From: Desulfovibrionales bacterium
GTDB taxonomy: Bacteria > Desulfobacterota > Desulfovibrionia > Desulfovibrionales > Desulfomicrobiaceae
Reading direction: 5' to 3'
DNA length: 64,000 bases
Assembly (NCBI GenBank): GCA_012729655.1
Contig: JAAYCS010000189.1
Coordinates: forward strand, 1-64,000
This document shows positions 9,721 through 30,528 of this stretch, piece by piece. The position numbers were made by a program, and so were the translations under genes. The notes under the pieces were generated by a model. It saw only the letters and a program-made list of their open reading frames with translations, was not told where the DNA came from and ran no database searches. The number at the start of each line of letters is the position of its first letter. Within the stretch, counting starts at the first letter, position 1.

Positions 9721-10956
9721 CTACTTGTTCAGCTTCACTTCCTGAGGGAAGATCGGCAGGTAGCGGTAGGACAGGCTCATGACCAGGAATCCGTAGGCCA
9801 CGATCATGAGGGATGTGGACCACTCGGCCCAGTTGGGCATGTAGGAGGTCCAGCGGTCAAAGGTCATGACCGGGATGGCCAGGCCTTGCACCGTGAAGAC
9901 GAACCGGTTGATGGTCACGCCGATGGCTGCCAGGACCGCGGCAATGTACATCAGCGCCGGACGGTTGCGCACCGCGGGCAGGATGAGCATGAGGGCTGGC
10001 AGCAGCCCGCACACAACCAGTTCAGCCCACAGCAAACCGATGCCATAGCCGTACTCGCTGTTGTACATCTGCTCGAAGGTCAGACCCATGCCGGGCAGGA
10101 TGCCCTTGGCCCAGGCATACGTGTCCAGAATCTTGAAGAACATGTAAAAGCACAGGAGCAGACCGGAAATCTTGCCCATGAGCTTCTTGGTTTCGTAACT
10201 GACCAGTTTGCGGCCGGTGATGGTTTCCATCAGCGTGGCACAGAGCATGGTGAAGCCGGGGCCCGTGGCGATGGCCGAGGAGATGAACAGGAAGAACGTC
10301 CAGGGCCAGATGAAGAAGCCTTCGCGATACACGAACGGGCGGCCGAAGAGCACACCGTACATACCGCCCAGGGAACCCTGATGGAAGAAGGACAGGAAAG
10401 TGCCGATGCCGGCGAAGAGCGGCATGTACACATGGAAGTTGTGGGCCAGGTGGTGGCAGAACTTGTTCTCGTTGATCTTGCGGTTTTCCAGGATGATCGG
10501 CACGTACTCGATGATCAGGACGGTCAAGTAACAGGTGATACAGAAGATGACTTCCGTCAGCATGGAATGGACGTTGGGGTGCCAGTAGCCGAACCAGGCC
10601 CGCAGGGGCTGCCCGACGTCGAGCACCAGGACGAGCATGGCGCCGGAATAGCACAGGAATCCGACAATGACCGCCAGGTTGATGATGTTTTTCAGCTCAT
10701 CGATGCGGATGATGTAACGCAGGAAGCCGGAGAAAAAGGCTCCGGCGCCCAGGGCGATGACCGCCAAGTCAAAGGTGATCCACAGGCCGAACCCGAAATA
10801 GTTGTCCAGACCCGTCACGCCGATACCGGTTCCCAGGACCTTGAACGCCCCGTATCCGCCCCAGGCGAGGAAGATACTGATCACGCCCAGCCAGGCCAGG
10901 AACTTTCCAACAGAACACCGTTCCACCCCTTCGGGCCAGTACGCTCTATCAGACAT
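9721..10956 (-). CDS. qrcD: Menaquinone reductase, integral membrane subunit QrcD (NrfD-like)
   Basis: The 411-residue NrfD/PsrC-type membrane protein has about ten helices and binds the quinone in the Qrc complex. Qrc passes electrons from periplasmic cytochrome c3 (from H2 or formate) to menaquinone. The sequence is strongly hydrophobic throughout, with characteristic charged/aromatic loops such as FFHQGSLGGMYGVLFGRP and EGFFIWPWTFFLF. It is the last gene of qrcABCD, overlapping qrcC by 8 nt, with the ribosome site GGGGAGAA. A strong terminator follows. Confidence 0.93.
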   Translation of the reverse strand: MSDRAYWPEGVERCSVGKFLAWLGVISIFLAWGGYGAFKVLGTGIGVTGLDNYFGFGLWITFDLAVIALGAGAFFSGFLRYIIRIDELKNIINLAVIVGFLCYSGAMLVLVLDVGQPLRAWFGYWHPNVHSMLTEVIFCITCYLTVLIIEYVPIILENRKINENKFCHHLAHNFHVYMPLFAGIGTFLSFFHQGSLGGMYGVLFGRPFVYREGFFIWPWTFFLFISSAIATGPGFTMLCATLMETITGRKLVSYETKKLMGKISGLLLCFYMFFKILDTYAWAKGILPGMGLTFEQMYNSEYGYGIGLLWAELVVCGLLPALMLILPAVRNRPALMYIAAVLAAIGVTINRFVFTVQGLAIPVMTFDRWTSYMPNWAEWSTSLMIVAYGFLVMSLSYRYLPIFPQEVKLNK

Positions 10957-11719
10957 GTTCTCCCCCCTTCGCGTTCTTCAGGTAGTTGTCCCCGAGTTTG
11001 CGCACCCATTCACGCTTGGAGTAGTAGTACACCTGCGGGTCGGTGCCGAGCTTGGCCAGCAGGCGGAAAGCGTTCTTGGACGCGGCCAGCTTGCTAACTT
11101 CGTGCTCGGGATTGTTGAGGTTGCCGAATTTGATGGCTCCGGTCGGGCAGATCTCCGCGCACGCCGGGATATACGCATTCTCTGGCAGCTCCGTCGGGTT
11201 TTCTCCGTTCATGCGCGCCTGTTCCTTGGCTGCGTTGAAACGATGATGGCAGAATGTACACTTCTCCACCACGCCACGTGGACGTGCCGAAACATACGGG
11301 GTCAAGGTCTTTTCCATACCCTCGGGCCAGATCGGATCAAACCAGTTGAAATAACGGGCATGATACGGACAGGCCGCCATACAGTACCGGCACCCGATAC
11401 AACGGGGATAGATCTGGCTGACGATGCCGCCCTCTTCGTCCTTCAAGGTCGCCACCACGGGACAGACCGTGGAGCAGGATGGCTTGCCGCACTGCATGCA
11501 CGGCCTGGGCAGATAGGCGACCTGGTGTTCGGGAAAGGGTTTCTCGTTTGACAGCTCATATATGTTCATCCAGTCGGTGGTCCGCAGCTTGTTGGACGCG
11601 TCGACTTCCGGGGGCAGGTTGTTCTCCGCCTTGCAGGCCACGGCGCAGGCGCCGCAGCCGGTGCACTTGTCAAGGTCAATGACCATGCCCCATTTCACCT
11701 TGAATTCTTTTGCTTGCAT
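10949..11719 (-). CDS. qrcC: Menaquinone reductase, iron-sulfur subunit QrcC
   Basis: The 256-residue ferredoxin-like subunit carries four Cys clusters: CTGCGACAVACK, CMQCGKPSCSTVCP, CIGCRYCMAACP, and the later CTFC...CAEICP. This is the usual arrangement of the four-cluster electron-transfer subunit of molybdopterin-oxidoreductase-type complexes (PsrB/NrfC type). It connects the heme subunit QrcA with the membrane subunit QrcD. It lies 40 nt downstream of qrcB with an AGAGGAT ribosome site. Confidence 0.93.
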   Translation of the reverse strand: MQAKEFKVKWGMVIDLDKCTGCGACAVACKAENNLPPEVDASNKLRTTDWMNIYELSNEKPFPEHQVAYLPRPCMQCGKPSCSTVCPVVATLKDEEGGIVSQIYPRCIGCRYCMAACPYHARYFNWFDPIWPEGMEKTLTPYVSARPRGVVEKCTFCHHRFNAAKEQARMNGENPTELPENAYIPACAEICPTGAIKFGNLNNPEHEVSKLAASKNAFRLLAKLGTDPQVYYYSKREWVRKLGDNYLKNAKGGEHV

Positions 11720-11759
11720 TGTGGGTATCCTCTTCTTTTCTCCAGGTGCTCAAGAAACG

Positions 11760-13820
11760 TTACGCCTTGCTGACAGTGACCCGAACCGCGCCAAGCCGTG
11801 AAATACCGGTCTTGGCCTCAACTTCTGCGGTCAAGAGCTTGAAGACGTTATCTCCCTTGCCTCTGGAAAAACCGTCCCAGGCAGTGTGGCCAAAACCCAA
11901 CGGAGCCACCACGGTATCGTTCATCACTCCCTCAAAGATGCCGACTCTGGCTTTGCACTCGCCGCCGGCATTTGCCAACTTGACCAGGTCGTCCTTTTTC
12001 AGACCCAGGTTCTTGGCCGTGGCCCCGTTGACCAGCACGTACATGTCGTTGCCAAACATCTCGTTGAAACGGATGGCGTTGGTCCCAAAGGGCGGGGTGG
12101 CGATTTTGGCGCTGCCGATCTTCAAACGCGTCACCGCAGACAGGGCCAGGGACTTGCCATCCGCGGAGGCGACAGGAATTTCCTGCATGGGTTTCGTCCA
12201 CAGGGCCAGGTCCTGGGCAGGGTATTCCTTGCCGATCCACGGAGTGCCTTCCAGCAGGGAATCCATTTCGGCACCCAGGGCCTCGGCCTTGGCCTTGACC
12301 ACGTCCTCGAACTTCTCGAAGCCCAGGTCCAGACCGGCCTTGGCAGCGACAGAGAGCAGGACGTCGCCGGCCGGCTTGGTGTCGAATACGGGCTTGATGA
12401 CCGCCGCGGCGACCGTATAGTTGGGCTGACCCGAGCCATAGGGTGAATATGCGTCATCCAGACGCTCGAACGCGTAGCAATCGGGCATGATCAGGTCGGC
12501 CATGGTTGCGGTCTCGTCCATGAAGGGGCTGAAGGACACCACAAAACCCGCCTTGTCGATGGCCGCCTGGGCCTTGGCCAGATTCGGCATGGCGTAGGCC
12601 GGATTGGCGGAGTGAACAAGGAGCACGGCCGGAGCATCTGACCCGCCATCCGCCACAGTCGACAAGAAGGCTGCAAGGTCATTGCCGAGGAGTGCCTTTT
12701 TGCTCGCTGCGGCCTGCACGACTTTCGGGGCCCATGGCAGAACCCGCACCCCACCAACCACGTTGATCCGCTCCAGGAGCATGTTCACATACATTCCTGC
12801 AACGGCCTCCATGGCGCCCAGGCCCTGCCCAGACTCGGATGCCGCCAATACCAGCGGGCGACCGGCCTTGATCAGGTCCAAAGCCAGCCCTTTGATCACT
12901 TCGGCGGAAACACCAGTCAATGCGGACACCTGTTCCGGCTTGTAGTGAGCCTCCAGGAACTTCGCAAAATTGGCGTAGCCAGGCCAGGTCGAGCGGTCGC
13001 GGCCCTCCTTGAGGATCACGGAAGCCAAACCCAGGGCCAGAATGGGCTCTGTGCCGGCGTTGCATGGCACCCAGACATCGCCCACGGCCGAGGTCCCGTT
13101 CTGGGCCGGTCCGACATATACGTACTTGATCTTTTTGTCCCGGCTGGCGGAGAAGGCCCGACCATTCCGGGCCACATTGCCCCAAGAGCCCAAGGCGTCG
13201 GCCCCGAGCAGAAGGACATGGCTCGCATTTTCAATGTCGTAGCCGACCTGGCCATCCCCCCCGAGCATGGCTAGCGCCGCCGCCGCAGGGGCGCTTTCAC
13301 CGGGCATGAAGAACGCCTTGTCTGAGCCGGCCTTGCCTACGAGGCCTGCCAGCACGTCGGACACGGAGCCGGTCTCGTCACCGCTGATCATCGCCACGCT
13401 TGATCCCGCGGCCTTCAGCTTTTCGACCAACAGATTCTCGGCCTCTTCCCAGCTGATATCCTTAAATTTATCACCGTCCTTGACCTTGGGATTTTTCACC
13501 CTGGAAGGACTGTACAGGAGTTGCACACTGGCTGCGCCCAGGGGGCATATCCCACCCAGGCTCAGCGGATGGTCAGGATTGCCCTCAGCCCCGACCGGCT
13601 TCCCAGCCACGGTTTTGACCTTGATGCCGTATGCATCGGCACCCAGCTTGCATAATGCCGGAACCTTCACTTCCTCGCCGTAGTTCAGACGGGGAACCCA
13701 CGGCCAATTCTGGGTCCAGACGGACACGTCATCAAGGGATTTCCAAACCACGGGAGTGAAGAGGCTGCCTACGACGCCGCCAGTCACCAAAGAAATAAAG
13801 CTTCTTCTGTCGAGTCCCAT
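11760..13820 (-). CDS. qrcB: Menaquinone reductase, molybdopterin-oxidoreductase-like subunit QrcB
   Basis: The 686-residue periplasmic subunit has the fold of the CISM molybdopterin family and a twin-arginine-type N-terminus (DRRSFISLVTGG). The N-terminal Cys cluster expected of active family members is missing. The region that should hold it shows only isolated cysteines (VPALCKLGADAYG and GGICPLGA). This matches D. vulgaris QrcB, which is known to lack the molybdenum cofactor and FeS cluster. Its role is therefore structural or electron-transfer rather than catalytic. The start has a strong GAGAGGAG site. Confidence 0.93.
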   Translation of the reverse strand: MGLDRRSFISLVTGGVVGSLFTPVVWKSLDDVSVWTQNWPWVPRLNYGEEVKVPALCKLGADAYGIKVKTVAGKPVGAEGNPDHPLSLGGICPLGAASVQLLYSPSRVKNPKVKDGDKFKDISWEEAENLLVEKLKAAGSSVAMISGDETGSVSDVLAGLVGKAGSDKAFFMPGESAPAAAALAMLGGDGQVGYDIENASHVLLLGADALGSWGNVARNGRAFSASRDKKIKYVYVGPAQNGTSAVGDVWVPCNAGTEPILALGLASVILKEGRDRSTWPGYANFAKFLEAHYKPEQVSALTGVSAEVIKGLALDLIKAGRPLVLAASESGQGLGAMEAVAGMYVNMLLERINVVGGVRVLPWAPKVVQAAASKKALLGNDLAAFLSTVADGGSDAPAVLLVHSANPAYAMPNLAKAQAAIDKAGFVVSFSPFMDETATMADLIMPDCYAFERLDDAYSPYGSGQPNYTVAAAVIKPVFDTKPAGDVLLSVAAKAGLDLGFEKFEDVVKAKAEALGAEMDSLLEGTPWIGKEYPAQDLALWTKPMQEIPVASADGKSLALSAVTRLKIGSAKIATPPFGTNAIRFNEMFGNDMYVLVNGATAKNLGLKKDDLVKLANAGGECKARVGIFEGVMNDTVVAPLGFGHTAWDGFSRGKGDNVFKLLTAEVEAKTGISRLGAVRVTVSKA

Positions 13821-13838
13821 CGTAAATCCACTCCTCTC

Positions 13839-14381
13839 TTATTTGTGGCACACAAAGCAGGCGTTGCTGGCGCCATTCTTGGCATGGCATTCTTCACACT
13901 GCCACATCTTCATGGTGTCCTTGCTGTAGCCCGAGAGCCTGTTTTCATGGTAGACGGGCGGGGTGCTCATCGTGGACACATCGTGGTGACACGTTTTGCA
14001 CTCAAATTTTTCCTTGTGCGCGATATGGGAGAAGTACACGTTATCTGGCTGTTTCTGGTAGGCCAGCCATTCCACTTCCTTTTCCTTCTGCACGTACTCG
14101 GTTACGAAACGGGCCTCTTCTGGATCCTCCCCCTGGACGTCCTCATGACACCCGACACAATTTGCATTGGTAGGCAACCCGGTGAAGGAGCCATTCTCCC
14201 GAAACGCATGACAATCCTCACATGCCATGGCCTGGCCTTCCACATGCACGACGTGATCGAACCGGATGGGTTGGGCCTTCTGACTGTACAGGACTTTGGG
14301 GAAGCCCCACCAACCAAGCACGATCGATGCCACCAAGCCGACCAGGAATGGCAGCACCACGCAGCTTTTGCATTTTGCCAC
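13839..14381 (-). CDS. qrcA: Menaquinone reductase, multiheme cytochrome c subunit QrcA
   Basis: The 180-residue membrane-anchored cytochrome receives electrons from periplasmic type I cytochrome c3 and feeds the Qrc complex. An N-terminal membrane helix (VVLPFLVGLVASIVLGWWGF) precedes five CxxCH heme sites: CEDCH, CVGCH, CKTCH, CEECH and CFVCH. The D. vulgaris protein is described as hexaheme, so one site here is missing or atypical. The start is a GTG with GGAGAGGA upstream. It heads the qrcABCD operon. A candidate TTGACA box lies about 90 nt upstream. Confidence 0.92.
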   Translation of the reverse strand: MAKCKSCVVLPFLVGLVASIVLGWWGFPKVLYSQKAQPIRFDHVVHVEGQAMACEDCHAFRENGSFTGLPTNANCVGCHEDVQGEDPEEARFVTEYVQKEKEVEWLAYQKQPDNVYFSHIAHKEKFECKTCHHDVSTMSTPPVYHENRLSGYSKDTMKMWQCEECHAKNGASNACFVCHK

Positions 14382-26341: not shown

Positions 26342-26417
26342 GGGCCGTTAACTCAGACGGTAGAGTATCTGCCTTTTAAGCAGAGAGTCGAAGGTTCGAT
26401 CCCTTCACGGCCCACCA
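26342..26417 (+). tRNA. tRNA-Lys(UUU)
   Basis: A full cloverleaf with encoded CCA. Acceptor stem GGGCCGT/ACGGCCC, anticodon loop CTTTTAA (anticodon TTT), T arm GAAGG-TTCGATC-CCTTC. Confidence 0.97.
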
Positions 26418-26426
26418 AATACATGC

Positions 26427-26502
26427 GTCCCCATCGTCTAGTGGCCTAGGACGGCGGCCTCTCACGCCGCTAACAGGGGTTCAAACCCCCTTGGGGACGC
26501 CA
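26427..26502 (+). tRNA. tRNA-Glu(CUC)
   Basis: Acceptor stem GTCCCCA/TGGGGAC, discriminator G and encoded CCA. The anticodon stem GCGGC/GCCGC carries loop CTCTCAC (anticodon CTC). It is second in a three-gene tRNA cluster. Confidence 0.96.
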
Positions 26503-26523
26503 CTTTTTCTCGACGCAGCCTGC

Positions 26524-26601
26524 GTCCCCATCGTCTAGCTAGGTCCAGGACACCGGCCTTTCACGCCGATAACAGGGGTTCAAATCCCCTTGGGGACGCC
26601 A
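26524..26601 (+). tRNA. tRNA-Glu(UUC)
   Basis: Acceptor and T arms match the preceding tRNA-Glu. The anticodon loop is CTTTCAC (anticodon TTC), with encoded CCA. The D loop is two nt longer than in its neighbour, and the outermost anticodon-stem pair is a C-A mismatch (CCGGC/GCCGA). Confidence 0.94.
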
Positions 26602-26824: not shown

Positions 26825-27889
26825 ATGGACCCCACTCGTCTCATTCCCCAAGCCCTCCCCATTCCCGTGGAGTGGGGCTGGTTCTACCTCTTCCAGGTGC
26901 TCACGTTCATCCTCCACATCCTGGTCATGAATGTCATGCTCGGGGCATCTATCATCGCTCTGGTCCACCACCTGCGCGGGAAACGGGAGACCGAGCCCCT
27001 GACCACGACCATCTCCGTCAAGCTGCCCTTCACCATCGCCTTCGCCGTCAACTTCGGCGTGGCGCCGCTGCTCTTCATGCAGGTCCTCTACGGGCAGTTC
27101 CTGTACACGAGCAGCGTGCTCATGGCCGTCTACTGGTTGGCCGTCGTCGGACTGGTCATCGCCGCGTACGGCAGCGCCTACATCTACGACTTCCGCTACC
27201 CGTCCCTGGGCGGGCTGAAGACCGTATTCATCGGCGTGACGACCGCCTGCCTGCTGGCCACGGCCTTCATTTTCACCAACAACATGACCCTCATGCTGAA
27301 CCCCGAGACCTGGACCGGATATTTCGACAATCCCGGCGGGACCATCCTCAACCTCTCGGATCCGACCGTGCTGCCGCGCTTCCTGCACATCGTCGCCTCG
27401 TCCACGGCCCTGGGCGGCCTGGCCCTGGCCCTGATCTACTCGTGCCGCACGAGCGACCCGCAGGCCACGCACTGGATCCGGCACGGCATGAACTGGTACG
27501 CCTTCTCCACGGTTGTACAGATGGCCCTGGGGCTGTGGTTCCTCACGGCCCTGCCCGAGCGCATCTCGCACCTCCTGCTGGGCGGCTCCCTGCCCCACAC
27601 GCTGGTCTTCGCCGCTGGCGCAACCCTCGGAATCTTCAGCATCAGCAACGCCCTGCGCTACAACGTTCGCACCACGGCCATCATCTCCGTGACCACCATT
27701 TCGCTCATGGTCTACCTGCGTGACATGGTCCGGGATGCGTACCTGAGCCCGTATTTCCAGGTCAGCGACCGCGTCGTGACCGGCGAATACCTGCCCTTCG
27801 TCCTTTTCGTCCTGACCCTGGCGGCCGGACTCGTCATCGTCGCCTGGATGCTCAAAACGGCTTCCACCGACACGGAGGTGCGCTCATGA
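26825..27889 (+). CDS. Cytochrome bd-like (CydA-like) membrane subunit, short partner
   Basis: The 354-residue protein has about nine membrane helices and an overall CydA-like layout. Examples are EWGWFYLFQVLTFILHILVMNVMLG and the second block KLPFTIAFAVNFGVAPLLFMQVLYGQFLYTSS, which aligns with the CydA quinol-oxidase core. It lacks a heme c site and a recognisable CydB partner gene. It overlaps the following CydA-like/multiheme gene by 4 nt (ATGA), so the two probably form one complex with two CydA-like subunits. The start has AAGGAGAGG. A palindrome overlaps the promoter. The substrate is unknown; quinone contact is inferred from the fold. Confidence 0.75.
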   Translation: MDPTRLIPQALPIPVEWGWFYLFQVLTFILHILVMNVMLGASIIALVHHLRGKRETEPLTTTISVKLPFTIAFAVNFGVAPLLFMQVLYGQFLYTSSVLMAVYWLAVVGLVIAAYGSAYIYDFRYPSLGGLKTVFIGVTTACLLATAFIFTNNMTLMLNPETWTGYFDNPGGTILNLSDPTVLPRFLHIVASSTALGGLALALIYSCRTSDPQATHWIRHGMNWYAFSTVVQMALGLWFLTALPERISHLLLGGSLPHTLVFAAGATLGIFSISNALRYNVRTTAIISVTTISLMVYLRDMVRDAYLSPYFQVSDRVVTGEYLPFVLFVLTLAAGLVIVAWMLKTASTDTEVRS

Positions 27890-30528
27890 ACTTTCCGATC
27901 TGGGAACTCCACTGGGCCGGCGGCGGCCTGCTCATCGCCCTGATTTCCGTCTTTCACGTCTACATCGCCCACTTCGCCGTGGGCGGCGGCCTTTTCCTCG
28001 TGTTGACGGAACTTCTGGCCTACCGGCGCCAGTCGCCGGAAATCATGGACTACGCCAAACGGCACACCAAATTCTTCCTGCTGGTGACCATGGTCCTGGG
28101 CGGCATCACCGGCGTCGGCATCTGGTTCATCATTTCCCTGGTCGCACCGGCGGCCACCGTGAGCCTCATCCACACCTTCGTCTTCGGATGGGCCATCGAA
28201 TGGGTCTTCTTCCTCGGCGAAATCGTGTCCCTGTTCATCTACTACTACACCTTCGGCAGGATGAGCCGCCGCAACCACCTCGCCATGGGCTGGCTCTATT
28301 TCTTCTTCGGCTGGATGTCGCTGTTCATGATCAACGGCATCATCGGCTTCATGCTCACCCCCGGCGACTGGCCGGCCACGCGGGACTTCTGGGACGGCTT
28401 CTTCAACCCGACCTTCTGGCCGGCCCTGGTCTTCAGAACCTGCATCGCCCTGATGTTCGCCGGGCTCTACGGCTTCGTCACGGCCACCTGGGAAAAGGAC
28501 GCGCCGACCCGCGAAACCATGGTCCGCTACTGCGCCCTGTGGCTCCTGCTGCCCTTCGGGGTGCTGCTCCTGTCGGGATGGTGGTACCTGCAGGTCCTGC
28601 CTGAAGGGCCCAGGGCCATGATCCTCGGCGCTAACCCCGAGATCGCGCCCTTCCTCAAGGGCTTCGTCCAGATCTCCGCCCTGCTCTTCGCCGGCGGCCT
28701 CGCCATGGCCATCCGCATGCCGGCCGCCGTCAAGCGCCCCATGGCCGTGACCCTGCTCGTCATCGGCCTCCTGTACATGGGCTGCTTCGAGTGGATGCGT
28801 GAAGCCGGCCGCAGGCCGTACCTCATCTACGGACACATGTACTCCAACGCCATCCTGGCCGGGACCGAGGAGGCCATCTCCAAGCAGGGCTTCCTGGCAA
28901 CGTCGGGCTGGAACCGCAACCAGGAAGTCACCCCCGATAACGCCCTGGACGCTGGGAAAGAGATCTTCCGAGGCCAGTGCGCCTCCTGCCACTCCATCGG
29001 CGGCCCCCTGAACGACATCAAGCCCCTGACAGCCGTGTTCGGCCGGTTCGCCATGGAGTCCATGATCCGCGGCATGGGCAAGATCCACTCCTACATGCCG
29101 CGTTTCGCCGGCACGGAACTGGAGCGGGGCGCCCTGGCTTCGTATATCGTGGAGGGATTGCACGGCAAAAAAACCGCGGCCGCGGAAGCCCTCGCGCGTC
29201 CCGAAGCCGCCCTCGAAATCCCGCCCTTCGATGCGGAGAACTGCAAGTACGTGCTGCTGGCCTGGTGCACCCTCGGCGAAAAGTGCATCTCCGACAGCGA
29301 CGCGCATTTCTCCTTTCTCCCTCCGGGCAGTGCCCTGGTGGCCCAGCTCGTACGCCGCGACACGCGGCCCGAGATCGTGACCCAGGCCGTGAAGCTCACC
29401 TACCTCCCGCCGGCGGGCTTCGAAAACCCAAGCAAGCACGTAGACTTCTGGAAATATGCGCCGTCCCTGCTTGGCAAGGAGCTGCCGGCCAACGTGAGCG
29501 CCAAGGGGCTGGGTCTGTCGGGCGAGATGAAGCTCAATGAAAAGAACCTGACCTTCGTGGCCGACGGCATCCCTGTGCTGCCCTACCCCGACGGTGGCGG
29601 GGTCAACCCCTACCCCGTCTTTACCATTGAGGCCCGGGACGCCTCCAGCGGCGAACTCCTGGCCATGACCAGGGTCGTGGCGCCCATCTCCACGGAGATC
29701 GGCTGCCGCAAATGCCACGGCGGCGAATGGCGGCGCGACGGGGTCACGGGCATCTCCGCCCTGACCGCCTCGGACGTCCTGGCCCGACACGACCGCCGGC
29801 ACAAGACTAACCTGCTGATTCAGGCCGAAGGCGGCAAGCCCGTGCTCTGCCAGAGCTGCCACCCGGACCCGCTGCTGAACGCCGCCGGCAAGCCGGAACT
29901 ACTGAATCTGCCCGCCTCCATCCACGGCTTCCACGCCAACTACATGACCGGCATGGAAGACGCCCTGGCCTGCCACGCCTGCCACCCCACGGGTCCGGAC
30001 AGCCACACGCGCTGCGCCCGCGGCGTGCACGCCTCGCAGGCCGGACTGACCTGCGTCAACTGTCACGGCACCCTGGAAGACCACGCTCTGTCCCTGCTGA
30101 AGGCCGAGAAAGAAGCGGGCAAGGCCAAGGCCGACCGGCTCATGCGGCATATCAAGCCCAGACTCGTGGCCACGGTGGAGGAGATCTCGCCGCGCCAACC
30201 CTGGAAGGACGAGCCCGACTGCCTGACCTGCCACCTGGACTTCGCCGCCCCGCAGGGCGACTCGGCCTTCAACCACTGGGTGCGCGGCCCCGAGGGGCTC
30301 TACCGCACCCGCAGCGACGACGCGGGGCTCATGTGCGAGGCCTGCCACGGACCGACCCACGCCGAGTACCCGGCCGTGAACCCGTTCCACCCCGACCTCG
30401 ATGCCATCCAGCCCCTGCAGTACCAGGGTGCTCCGGGTCCCATTGGCTCGGGTGGCAACTGCGCCGTGTGCCACACCGAGGAAATGCTGGACGAGTTCCA
30501 CCACCCCAACATCCTGGGCGGCAAATGA
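27886..30528 (+). CDS. CydA-like quinol-oxidase domain fused to an eight-heme cytochrome c region
   Basis: In this 880-residue protein, residues 1 to about 330 form a CydA-like membrane domain. It includes HVYIAHFAVGGGLFLV, TKFFLLVTMVLGGITGVGIWF, and an IEWVFFLGE segment with two Glu eight residues apart, like the paired glutamates of CydA. A monoheme domain follows (CASCH at residues 365-369). A region rich in hemes comes next, with CxxCH at about 607, 655, 696, 723, 779, 817 and 859, making eight in total. The heme part should be periplasmic. It is probably a quinone:cytochrome c module, either quinol oxidation to periplasmic carriers or the reverse. Oxygen reduction is not established. Confidence 0.78.
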   Translation: MNFPIWELHWAGGGLLIALISVFHVYIAHFAVGGGLFLVLTELLAYRRQSPEIMDYAKRHTKFFLLVTMVLGGITGVGIWFIISLVAPAATVSLIHTFVFGWAIEWVFFLGEIVSLFIYYYTFGRMSRRNHLAMGWLYFFFGWMSLFMINGIIGFMLTPGDWPATRDFWDGFFNPTFWPALVFRTCIALMFAGLYGFVTATWEKDAPTRETMVRYCALWLLLPFGVLLLSGWWYLQVLPEGPRAMILGANPEIAPFLKGFVQISALLFAGGLAMAIRMPAAVKRPMAVTLLVIGLLYMGCFEWMREAGRRPYLIYGHMYSNAILAGTEEAISKQGFLATSGWNRNQEVTPDNALDAGKEIFRGQCASCHSIGGPLNDIKPLTAVFGRFAMESMIRGMGKIHSYMPRFAGTELERGALASYIVEGLHGKKTAAAEALARPEAALEIPPFDAENCKYVLLAWCTLGEKCISDSDAHFSFLPPGSALVAQLVRRDTRPEIVTQAVKLTYLPPAGFENPSKHVDFWKYAPSLLGKELPANVSAKGLGLSGEMKLNEKNLTFVADGIPVLPYPDGGGVNPYPVFTIEARDASSGELLAMTRVVAPISTEIGCRKCHGGEWRRDGVTGISALTASDVLARHDRRHKTNLLIQAEGGKPVLCQSCHPDPLLNAAGKPELLNLPASIHGFHANYMTGMEDALACHACHPTGPDSHTRCARGVHASQAGLTCVNCHGTLEDHALSLLKAEKEAGKAKADRLMRHIKPRLVATVEEISPRQPWKDEPDCLTCHLDFAAPQGDSAFNHWVRGPEGLYRTRSDDAGLMCEACHGPTHAEYPAVNPFHPDLDAIQPLQYQGAPGPIGSGGNCAVCHTEEMLDEFHHPNILGGK

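Follow-up and report, generated by a model that had tools for sequence, protein, structure and literature searches.

The bd superfamily has, beside the canonical CydAB oxidases, a non-quinol branch, the OR-C of Murali et al. 2021, which is said to contain c-type hemes. The gene pair analyzed here, coding for two proteins that we call A and B (or A′), is probably a version of the non-quinol bd families that the literature names OR-C/OR-N; it lies in a 64,000-nucleotide stretch of DNA (hereinafter the window; contig JAAYCS010000189.1 of assembly GCA_012729655.1) from a Desulfovibrionales bacterium. The name OR-C is used for a family in the available portions of PMC13189123, PMC11707229, and PMC10839748. 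The OR-N oxidases (CydAA′ or bd-like) that Nitrospirota and Nitrospinota possess (PMC10839748, PMC12342949, PMC3578206) share with our pair two CydA-type subunits, the lack of a quinol site, and a presumed cytochrome c donor; the quinol-site-free bd-like proteins of Nitrospinota are likewise read as cytochrome c-fed oxygen reductases in the accessible part of PMC10839748. Further, a CydA homolog of cable bacteria (CydAh) has, like A, a periplasmic c domain, and in PMC13047784 is proposed to function in O2 reduction. In their available text, PMC12342949, PMC9040806, PMC10839748, PMC3578206, and PMC13047784 all bear on related proteins and none amounts to biochemical proof.

The octaheme protein A and its partner B

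The source assembly (2.84 Mb, 226 contigs, 88.6% complete) is close to Desulfomicrobium, with loci L023 and L024 as its best named matches in a scan of GTDB contigs. Both open reading frames (ORFs) of the pair were confirmed, with the following features:

26825..27889, + strand: B (A′), a 354-amino-acid (aa), nine-helix CydA-fold paralog with no c hemes and with invariant H31, R185, H188, M295, and R299
27886..30528, + strand: A, an 880-aa CydA-like/octaheme cytochrome c fusion protein
27886..27889, + strand: ATGA overlap of the B stop and the A start (four shared bases)
27904..28851, + strand: membrane domain of A with the CydA fold (eight helices, residues 7-322); H24, E105, E112, and E306 occupy the positions of CydA H19, E99, E107, and E445
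28939..29157, + strand: monoheme c domain of A (residues 352-424), with CASCH at 365-369 and invariant M404 as the likely second ligand
29233..29700, + strand: Ig-like beta domain of A (residues 450-605; weak fold match, Z 5-6)
29701..30525, + strand: heptaheme c domain of A (residues 606-880), with seven CxxCH plus seven further invariant His

The Pfam model PF01654 matches residues 17-199 of A (E 3e-11, 43 bits vs a cut-off of 26.2), and profile comparisons pair A with CydA (79.6%, E 1.5e-5) and not with CydB (1.2%), QrcD (0.1%), or MFS (0.2%). In the AlphaFold model of A (mean predicted local distance difference test score, pLDDT, 87.1; eight helices followed by soluble domains), residues 7-322 superpose on the CydA chains of ten bd entries of the PDB with Z 27.6-29.4 and a root-mean-square deviation of 2.7-3.3 Å over 301-314 residues; the next fold family, comprising alternative complex III and PsrC subunits, follows at Z 16.5-17.5. 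A ligand alignment of 24 of the 85 octaheme A sequences, 11 short A forms, 11 bd-like proteins (for which the columns of transmembrane helix 8 are unreliable), and 13 canonical CydAs showed that H24, H29, E105, E112, R184, E302, R305, E306, R309, and P311 are kept in 35/35 A sequences (24 octaheme and 11 short), and that canonical CydA shares the residue of A at H24, E105, E112, E306, R309, and P311. Across the 85 distinct octaheme-type rows (>700 aa), conservation is 1.00 at H24, E105, E112, R184, E302, E306, and R309, and 0.99 at H29. H24, E105, E112, and E306 are the equivalents of H19, E99, E107, and E445 of E. coli CydA. The equivalents of H186 and M393 are absent from A: position 183, at the place of E. 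coli H186, is F, L, M, V, or Y in all 35 A sequences and never the His of canonical CydA, and the profile alignment with CydA places no Met at the M393 position of the window's A. Nor was a Q-loop found in the model of A, where helices 6 (206-237) and 7 (253-275) are joined by a linker of ~15 residues.

Eight CxxCH motifs were counted in A: the first is at residue 365, and the other seven follow from residue 607 onward. A c-type heme in the catalytic chain, a trait ascribed to OR-C, is thus present. The Pfam model Cytochrome_C7 matches residues 715-863, and Cytochrome_CBB3 matches residues 353-421 below its cut-off. The invariant M404 is as expected of a Met/His monoheme. The invariant His residues of the heptaheme domain outside CxxCH motifs number exactly seven (635, 680, 683, 715, 825, 872, and 873), one for each of its hemes, which fits a bis-His, all-low-spin wire with no extra catalytic heme. 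The loop charges of the protein (10 K/R inside, 5 outside) fit c domains that lie outside. The similarity of the heptaheme part to MtrC was weak (Pfam below cut-off; 4lm8, Z 5.2) and was not used. These results bear out the sequence-only reading, which had seen a CydA-type domain with paired glutamates (the invariant E105 and E112) joined in one polypeptide to one monoheme and seven further CxxCH sites.

That reading had also placed a second, translationally coupled CydA-like subunit upstream. B matches no Pfam family (nor do 30 members of its family), and scans with Pfam and NCBIfam gave nothing useful, so that PF01654 recovers only A of the two subunits. An hhalign comparison of the A and B profiles, however, gave a probability of 97% (E 1e-10) vs <2% for membrane-protein controls; directly compared, the B profile did not match CydA significantly (1.1%), nor CydB (0.5%) or QrcD (0.4%), and a profile search of the PDB with B returned chance matches only. 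The AlphaFold model of B (mean pLDDT 91.6, nine helices) has its best fold match in the CydA chain of the same ten bd entries (Z 26.0-28.5; next family Z 15.0-18.8), and CydB chains also fit its fold with similar TM-scores (Foldseek). We therefore assign B to the CydA superfamily by its profile match to A together with its fold, rather than by a direct sequence match. The residues H31, R185, H188, M295, and R299 of B are kept in 33/33 sequences, H188 sits at the place of H186, and no Q-loop was found in the model. Two functions of CydA thus look divided between the subunits, with the O2 site in A and the b558 site in B. The CydA-like nature of the upstream subunit is thereby supported, and its translational coupling to A may be expected from the ATGA overlap.

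The sole CydB of the assembly lies on contig C148, next to another, canonical CydA, in keeping with the earlier claim that no CydB accompanies the pair and that it is a two-CydA-type complex rather than a normal bd oxidase. Relative to canonical CydAB (PDB 6rx4, 5doq, 7ose), A has the fold of CydA and its O2-site residues H19, E99, E107, and E445, but differs in lacking the CydB partner, the b558 ligands, and the Q-loop, in bearing eight fused c hemes, and in having a second CydA-fold protein as its partner.

Electron donor and substrate of the pair

The retention of the O2-site residues in A, together with its loss of quinol features, argues for cytochrome c-fed oxygen reduction. Judged from the sequences and models, A and B probably constitute an inner-membrane oxygen reductase of the bd superfamily that would be fed by periplasmic c-type cytochromes and not by quinol. 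In the scheme that we infer, including its heme content, electron donor, direction of electron flow, complex formation, and oxygen as substrate, the cytochrome c3 pool of the periplasm, filled by hydrogenases, by formate dehydrogenases, or by a reverse-running Qrc, would pass electrons to the heptaheme domain, and from there via the Met/His monoheme to a pair of high-spin hemes within the CydA-like part of A. There O2 would be reduced, with protons entering along the E105/E112 path, while B would take the place of CydB as structural partner and probably hold a b-type heme on the invariant H188 (H186 position). The pair likely serves anaerobes for scavenging oxygen or for micro-aerobic respiration. 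The assembly codes for c3-type cytochromes, and no heme-copper oxidase was found in it at 88.6% completeness.

Several observations weigh against this reading. H29 and R184 are invariant in A yet absent from canonical CydA, which the scheme does not explain. The AlphaFold models of A and B are cofactor-free predictions. A canonical CydAB is already present in the genome, which means that the pair need not serve as the sole oxidase, and the hosts are mostly anaerobes. B could carry a quinol site of its own; for related bd-like proteins that have no Q-loop and lack the quinol residues, the available text of PMC3578206 also allows a quinone role.

The pair might instead be a quinol:cytochrome c oxidoreductase, as the sequence-only reading had supposed in assigning it a link between the quinone pool and periplasmic carriers: menaquinol would be oxidized in the membrane part, perhaps in B, with electrons leaving through the octaheme arm, or the flow would be the reverse. 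B is a CydA-fold protein whose invariant H188 and M295 could ligate a low-spin b heme close to a quinone, and subunits of the NrfD type superpose on the CydA fold as well, among them PsrC with bound menaquinone (2vpw_C; Z 15.0 for B and 16.5 for A). However, neither protein has a Q-loop, A is devoid of the H186 and M393 equivalents, and the oxygen-site residues are invariant though such an enzyme would not need them. Moreover, Qrc (QrcABCD), which is known to link menaquinone and periplasmic c3, is encoded in the same window, so this link is already provided:

9721-14381, - strand: Qrc operon (QrcA and QrcB above NCBIfam cut-offs)
13839-14381, - strand: QrcA (NF041781, E 2.5e-82)
11760-13820, - strand: QrcB (NF041783, E 3.8e-295)
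10949-11719, - strand: Fe-S protein, presumably QrcC
9721-10956, - strand: multi-helix membrane protein, presumably QrcD

Unlike the QrcA and QrcB of the window, A and B match no Qrc model. We accordingly regard an oxidoreductase as unlikely; of the earlier proposal, the connection of the c hemes to periplasmic carriers is still expected, whereas its quinone end is unsupported. One might speculate that Qrc and the A-B pair form a quinol-to-c3-to-O2 chain. A tRNA-Lys and two tRNA-Glu genes lie directly upstream of the pair (26342-26601, + strand).

Somewhat less likely still is that the same wiring serves another small substrate, such as nitric oxide (NO) or peroxide, or that the pair acts as a redox or oxygen sensor, which would likewise speak against an oxygen reductase. 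The high-spin diheme site could bind NO, and the hosts are, again, mostly anaerobic. The GTDB contig scan found a relative encoded in 316 of 329 candidate stretches, of which the best 80 loci were kept; their neighborhoods have no further conserved gene next to the pair, and hence gene context names no substrate. Against this stand the ten best matches among solved structures, all of them bd oxidases, the conserved proton-path glutamates, and a pair (L142) located ~130 bases after a canonical cydAB on the same strand.

Distribution, architectures, and relatives

That unrelated genes were joined by chance or assembly error can be dismissed: the window is a contig of a 226-piece assembly, but among the 75 of the best 80 loci in which the 3′ end of A is present, 66 have exactly eight CxxCH in one frame, across several phyla. 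The octaheme fusion is hence not a sequencing artifact, and the heme region is not a separate protein, an eventuality that the sequence-only reading had allowed for. In the other 9/75 loci, A is frame-broken, split, or shorter, and an end truncates five further loci. The best 80 loci come from Desulfobacterota, Bacteroidota, Ignavibacteriota, Calditrichota, Nitrospirota (Thermodesulfovibrio), Gemmatimonadota, KSB1, and others.

Among 61 genomes (the window's own and 60 relatives; thresholds E <1e-20 for A and E <1e-10 for B), A occurs in 43 and B in 42, and each B-bearing genome has A adjacent, as in CydAA′-type systems with two co-encoded CydA-superfamily subunits; the association of the two genes is thereby confirmed. 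The sole A-only genome (G021) has a fragment of A from residue 281, near a contig end. A short form of A (~450 aa) is seen in 5 of the 43 genomes (G030, G034, G042, G046, and G057). In a Nitrospirota sample 28/60 genomes gave matches: 8 with octaheme-length frames (770-895 aa), 4 with short, and 16 with only bd-like forms. In the Desulfobulbaceae-type family of Desulfogranum (G065) 45/73 genomes matched, cable-type forms included, and 29 matches have open frames of at least 800 aa with E <1e-140.

The c hemes are arranged in several ways around what all architectures share, namely B and the membrane core of A, which bears one c heme. With the number of hemes in brackets, we recovered A(1)+B(0); A(3)+B(0); diheme cytochrome+A(1)+B(2); triheme cytochrome+A(1)+B(2); and A(8)+B(0). 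The minimal version, a monoheme A together with B and no other adjoining heme protein, is found at L139, L141, and L142, and also at L042 and L054, and separate di- or triheme cytochromes are added at L133, L134, L140, and L143. Given these minimal and cytochrome-adding relatives, we see the c hemes as the constant input and the heptaheme part as an extension. At L133, L134, and L143 the separate cytochrome is diheme (triheme at L140), A has one heme, B has a C-terminal diheme extension, and N36 of B is replaced by Leu. Two Desulfovibrio-type loci (L069 and L078) have A split into a CydA-like ORF (435/472 aa) and a following ORF of 594-632 aa with nine or ten CxxCH. A decayed pair, in which frame changes break both B and A directly downstream of a transposase-like gene, was noted in a genome that belongs to the same genus and consists of one contig (L136, G011:C1).

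A quick tree of 92 A-type rows (70 octaheme-type, 11 short, 11 bd-like; SH-aLRT, the Shimodaira-Hasegawa-like approximate likelihood ratio test, as the only support), which has long branches and in which some rows called octaheme are cut by contig ends or frame-broken, nests the octaheme form among monoheme forms and requires three changes, for which a single origin with two losses (L042 and L054) is the simplest account. The bd-like Nitrospirota rows, presumably OR-N, fall on the opposite side from A of a branch labeled 100* in this quick, long-branched tree; unlike A, they keep the His at the H186 position, have no c heme in the chain, and are mostly of 556-627 aa with ~12-14 helices. In a Nitrospirota genome (L144, 2584-5172), two A-like genes in tandem (408 and 440 aa) lack c hemes and sit on very long branches.

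In 12 of 13 Desulfobulbaceae genomes (G178-G190) we observed a CydA-like gene that stands alone and encodes a c domain (L171-L182), with one CxxCH in 11/12 loci and two in L177. A truncated globin is present in 12/13 genomes of this block vs 0/5 control genomes, and the lone gene is probably the CydAh of cable bacteria. In contrast to A, these candidates (12 loci; hosts presumably cable-type) are not accompanied by B, retain the His at the H186 position, and are without E112 (the E107 equivalent) and H29; the cable-type gene being a different subfamily, the protein of the window is not the cable-bacteria CydAh. A link of the octaheme-less L042 and L054 to cable bacteria through a truncated globin was rejected, as 0/5 genomes had one.

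Non-quinol bd-type enzymes are known from genomes, and the available parts of the literature call their function unconfirmed. A CydA-octaheme fusion was named in no title or abstract opening returned by our literature searches, and may still be in print. Quinol may even have been dropped altogether, a conjecture that we hold with some reserve: with the O2 site in A, a b558-like site in B, and a built-in eight-heme wire, many 'strict' anaerobes of several phyla would gain a direct route from periplasmic c3 (or even extracellular) electrons to O2. The stepwise gain of c hemes (1, 3, 8, or as separate subunits) has taken place on one catalytic core. This compact two-gene version, common among the relatives of the organism, offers a way to test how O2 is consumed with periplasmic electrons by sulfate reducers that have no heme-copper oxidase.

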